Of a stretch of 64,000 nt of DNA, positions 63,816-64,000 are shown one piece after another; within the stretch, counting starts at the first letter, position 1, and the number at the start of each line of letters is the position of its first letter. The translations under genes were made by a program, and so were the position numbers. The notes under the pieces are model-generated. The model was not told the origin of the DNA, searched no databases, and saw only the letters and a program-made list of their open reading frames with translations. The stretch comes from a bacterium HR19 (GTDB taxonomy: Bacteria > Calescibacteriota > Calescibacteriia > Calescibacteriales > Calescibacteriaceae): positions 56,297-120,296 of the forward strand of contig BEHV01000008.1 in NCBI GenBank assembly GCA_002898315.1, given 5' to 3'.

Positions 63816-63844
63816 TTGACTTCTGAAAAATAAGTGATTAATAT
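63816..63844 (+). promoter_or_regulatory. Sigma70-like promoter (TTGACT - 17 bp - TAATAT)
   Basis: TTGACT at 63816-63821 and TAATAT at 63839-63844 with exactly 17 bp between; expected TSS about 63851. Confidence 0.75.
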
Positions 63845-63852
63845 ATTTCTAT

Positions 63853-63874
63853 CCCAAGGTGAGGAAACCTTGGG
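63853..63874 (+). promoter_or_regulatory. 5'-leader hairpin 1: CCCAAGGT-(GAGGAA)-ACCTTGGG
   Basis: 8-bp perfect inverted repeat, 6-nt loop containing GGA, beginning about 2 nt after the predicted TSS. Confidence 0.75.
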
Positions 63875-63880
63875 AAATTT

Positions 63881-63902
63881 TCAGCAAGGAGGTGGCTGCT
63901 GA
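63881..63902 (+). promoter_or_regulatory. 5'-leader hairpin 2 with the Shine-Dalgarno in the loop
   Basis: TCAGC(63881-63885)...GCTGA(63898-63902), or CAGC/GCTG (63882-63885/63895-63898), enclosing AAGGAGGTG. Confidence 0.5.
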
Positions 63903-64000
63903 TGGCAACACCAGTCAGAACAAACCCAGCAGGTATTGTAGCAGCAGAAGACCTAAGGCGTATCACCATTGAACTTGGAGGCACTATGAAACGCCTCCAA
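63902..64000 (+). CDS. Probable flagellin N-terminus (truncated by window end)
   Basis: MATPVRTNPAGIVAAEDLRRITIELGGTMKRLQ: TN at 7-8, A10, L18, L25, M29, R31-L32 coincide position by position with flagellin N-termini of the form MALTVNTNVASLNTQRNLGASSNDLNTSLQRL. Perfect SD AAGGAGGTG 7 nt upstream. Confidence 0.55.
   Translation, partial: MATPVRTNPAGIVAAEDLRRITIELGGTMKRLQ

Follow-up and report, generated by a model that had tools for sequence, protein, structure and literature searches.

The leader of a flagellin gene in an uncultured hot-spring bacterium of the Candidatus Calescibacterium lineage is probably a translational switch, controlled by CsrA and relieved by FliW. We infer CsrA binding, repression and relief. 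How might such a switch operate? One CsrA dimer would bridge two sites 25 nt apart. The first is a GGA displayed by the loop of a 5' hairpin (hairpin 1); the second, GCAAGGA, overlaps the Shine-Dalgarno (SD) sequence. Bound CsrA would block ribosome binding. Export of flagellin would free FliW, which would then remove CsrA, so that flagellin synthesis would be limited to filament growth.

The stretch of DNA that we analysed, here called the window, is 64,000 nucleotides long (G000:C8:56297-120296, where G000 is the genome of this bacterium). Its final base coincides with the end of contig C8. The features discussed below are these:

63816..63844, plus strand: sigma-70-type promoter TTGACT-N17-TAATAT, from a consensus scan; predicted transcript start near 63851
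63852..63875, plus strand: hairpin 1, probably the upstream CsrA site; nine pairs closing the loop GAGGAA (GGA 63863-63865); folding z -4.28
63884..63893, plus strand: GCAAGGAGGT, a Shine-Dalgarno sequence with an embedded CsrA-like motif CARGGA-N-GU, GGA at 63888-63890; present in 8/8 flagellin leaders
63902..64000, plus strand: start of the flagellin open reading frame, 33 codons, then the contig end; 97% identity to residues 1-33 of the 420-residue flagellin of G003
Window 63902-64000; L008:5504-5602; L071:1-112; L072:1-120: flagellin fragments at contig ends, two 5' ends (C8, C11) and two 3' ends (C4, C6)

A flagellin gene broken by the assembly

An earlier note on this DNA had read the open reading frame at 63902 as a probable flagellin gene from its first codons. 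The sister species in the same genus (G003) bears this out: its orthologue, identical at 97% of the N-terminal positions, is complete and matches both Flagellin_N (2.4e-11) and Flagellin_C (5.5e-10). Beyond the point where the window ends it reads on as RLQTG.RVNSA, which is flagellin-like.

The end of contig C11 carries the same coding bases as the end of the window (94% identity over 118 nt), and contigs C4 and C6 both open inside a flagellin gene, 36-37 codons before its end. With 5' ends on C8 and C11 and 3' ends on C4 and C6, the genome has two near-identical flagellin genes, and the assembly broke at both. Synteny with G003 makes C4 the continuation of C11, giving copy B. Because synteny pairs C4 with C11, we assign C6 to the window flagellin, copy A, as its presumed continuation. 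An intrinsic terminator follows the flagellin end on C6.

A conserved CsrA-like motif in the Shine-Dalgarno sequence

The SD sequence AAGGAGGT (63886-63893) lies within the 10-mer GCAAGGAGGT, which is invariant in all eight flagellin leaders compared; these represent two copy groups in three genera. None of 414 other start sites has it; this background was taken from 506 kb of the same genome and includes starts within operons. The CsrA-like motif that the earlier note placed over the SD is supported. Since few ancestors gave rise to the eight leaders, they are not independent. The comparative set is also small, since the same five genomes make it up at family, order, class and phylum level. 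One flagellin gene, that beside flgB in G004, was excluded from the motif count. This gene, complete and the third flagellin gene of that genome (L014:1388-1500, also L040), lacks the leader with GCAAGGAGGT, and no SD stands out clearly before it.

Apart from GCAAGGAGGT and the start codon, the eight leaders can hardly be aligned with one another. Because its flanks have diverged in this way, the 10-mer looks selectively kept. Kept for what? The consensus for CsrA binding is RUACARGGAUGU (PMC7652899). The conserved CA before AGGA and the GU after it would suit CsrA, and a plain SD would have no need of the CA. Among the background starts AAGGAGG occurs at 40, CAAGGAGG at one (rpoA, named from its translation) and GCAAGGAGG at none.

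One hairpin is supported and one is not

All eight flagellin leaders have a second GGA 15-40 nt upstream of the first, 25 nt in the window. Of the background leaders, 33-41% likewise have an upstream GGA. Hairpin 1, UCCCAAGGU-GAGGAA-ACCUUGGGA, pairs 63852-63860 with 63867-63875 at -16 kcal/mol, and none of 200 shuffles folds as well (z -4.28). Its GGA is looped in essentially the entire predicted ensemble, also at 65 °C. The sister species retains the hairpin with its innermost pair open and the loop AGAGGAAA. Among background leaders only 7 of 414 have a looped-GGA hairpin (-2 kcal/mol or lower, 10-40 nt before the SD). The GGA-displaying hairpin proposed for the 5' end of the transcript is upheld by predicted folding in the window and in G003. 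Leaders from the other genera have the second GGA as well, and in several of them it is predicted to be paired, not looped.

Strong folding in general is widespread in these leaders: seven of the eight fold at -12 kcal/mol or lower, against 2.2% of background leaders. Covariation in the A-type alignment, which holds the four alignable leaders, was no better than in shuffles. A search of Rfam found no matching family for the leader and one sub-threshold chance match.

The second hairpin in the earlier note, which was to show the SD in its loop, we do not count as an element. It would occupy 63881..63902 on the plus strand, pairing 63881-63886 with 63897-63902 at -6.9 kcal/mol. Fifty-six of 200 shuffles equal it (z -0.51). 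The sister species G003 has G-G in place of one C-G pair, the hairpin was not found in the other genera, and once 30 nt of coding sequence are included in the fold other pairings displace it. Nor is such an arrangement rare: the SD GGA falls within some possible hairpin loop at 26 of the 414 background starts. The leader thus has no well-supported second stem-loop around the SD GGA of the kind found in Campylobacter jejuni. CsrA sites over an SD need no hairpin, so this lack of support tells only against a leader of the C. jejuni subtype.

CsrA and FliW are encoded in the genome

The reading needs both protein partners, and a search for them succeeded. CsrA (77.5 bits) and FliW (87.8 bits) are each encoded by a single-copy gene in G000, and both are found in 5/5 genomes of the phylum. 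In CsrA the residues L4, R6, K7 and R44 are kept, and the protein ends in a C-terminal extension resembling that of Bacillus subtilis. In Bacillus this is the part that binds FliW; here its sequence is poorly conserved, which counts against the switch. FliW matches the FliW of PDB 5dmb, an entry that also contains a CsrA chain. The two genes are unlinked in G000. Behind fliW, in the stretch L011:4974-8304, lie a TPR-rich glycosyltransferase-like gene and a divergent flagellin- or FlgL-like gene that has no Pfam match over threshold.

Alternative explanations

Could the leader do without CsrA? Hairpin 1 might serve mainly as a 5' stabiliser or insulator of the mRNA of a very highly expressed gene, with GCAAGGAGGT just a strong SD. 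Strong 5' hairpins of unrelated sequence do recur in seven of the eight leaders, their GGA is not always exposed, and AAGGAGGT is a perfect SD. A strong SD, however, needs no GC before it. At the 40 background AAGGAGG sites C precedes one and GC none, whereas GC is there in 8/8 flagellin leaders; csrA and fliW are, moreover, present throughout. We consider this explanation unlikely. A second alternative is that the flagellin copies share the 10-mer simply because they were recently duplicated or underwent gene conversion, and not because it is kept as a regulatory site. It can point to the 5' coding sequences, nearly identical between the copies within a genome, and to an ACTTGA block upstream that copies A and B have in common. 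Yet the leaders of copies and genera differ almost everywhere outside the 10-mer and the start codon, and we give this origin very little credence.

The CsrA-controlled switch remains the explanation that we favour. It could have a further elaboration, on which we would place little weight: each major flagellin copy has its own, independently evolved 5' hairpin beside the invariant GCAAGGAGGT, and a differing hold of CsrA on the copies might switch them on in sequence as the filament grows.

Comparison with known systems

Switches of this type are already known from Bacillus and Campylobacter. In the flaA leader of C. jejuni, each of two loops carries a GGA, with a spacing of 21 nt, and both sites have been footprinted (PMC4894983). 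The window leader follows this layout apart from the unsupported second hairpin. Both leaders are short, 45 nt in C. jejuni and about 50 nt in the window. Each shows one GGA in a 5' hairpin loop and another across the ribosome-binding site, and the spacing is similar, 21 nt against 25 nt. C. jejuni likewise encodes fliW away from csrA. There are also differences (PMC4894983). The second stem-loop is experimentally supported in C. jejuni, whereas folding gives it no support here; compensatory changes are reported there, whereas our four alignable leaders do no better than shuffles. C. jejuni belongs to another phylum, and our leader is read from sequence and predicted folds.

The hag leader of B. 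subtilis offers the second comparison (PMC7652899, PMC6529632). There too a flagellin leader has two CsrA sites, putative in our case, one of them over the SD; CsrA has a C-terminal extension and FliW is encoded. In B. subtilis, however, fliW and csrA are adjacent and translationally coupled, whereas here they are unlinked. It also belongs to another phylum, and for our bacterium CsrA binding and partner switching are read across by likeness (PMC7652899, PMC6529632). The proposal that the logic of hag operates in a different lineage is therefore kept in part: the flagellin gene, csrA and fliW, the GGA of hairpin 1 and the motif in the SD are supported, and hairpin 2 is not.

What is new is the phylum. 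This candidate phylum, Candidatus Calescibacteriota, has so far been credited just with flagellar genes (PMC4791363). Control of flagellin has been proposed as an ancient role of CsrA and FliW (PMC4894983), and a probable FliW-CsrA flagellin switch in an uncultured, thermophilic candidate phylum agrees with that proposal. These flagellin leaders also set fast-changing hairpins beside a fixed, SD-embedded site.

Promoter and predicted transcript start

The promoter given in the earlier note was recovered by our consensus scan, with TTGACT at 63816-63821, TAATAT at 63839-63844 and a 17-base spacer. The region has two promoter-like sites, where shuffles would give 0.3. TTGACT, equally spaced, is also present in the A-type leaders of G003, G001 and G004. 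With a predicted start near 63851, hairpin 1 would sit at the 5' end of the mRNA, where, as the earlier note proposed, it might also stabilise the transcript. A copy of the promoter stretch with 83% identity precedes an unrelated gene (L003:1501-1539, G000:C1:138658-138696), which suggests a strong promoter in general use in this genome. A search of G000 for canonical FliA (sigma-28) found none over the cut-off; the two matches are longer proteins of the sigma-70 family. Upstream of the B-type flagellin of G001 (L019:491-560, minus strand, G001:C23) lies TAAA-N15-TCCGATAA, which is sigma-28-like by eye.
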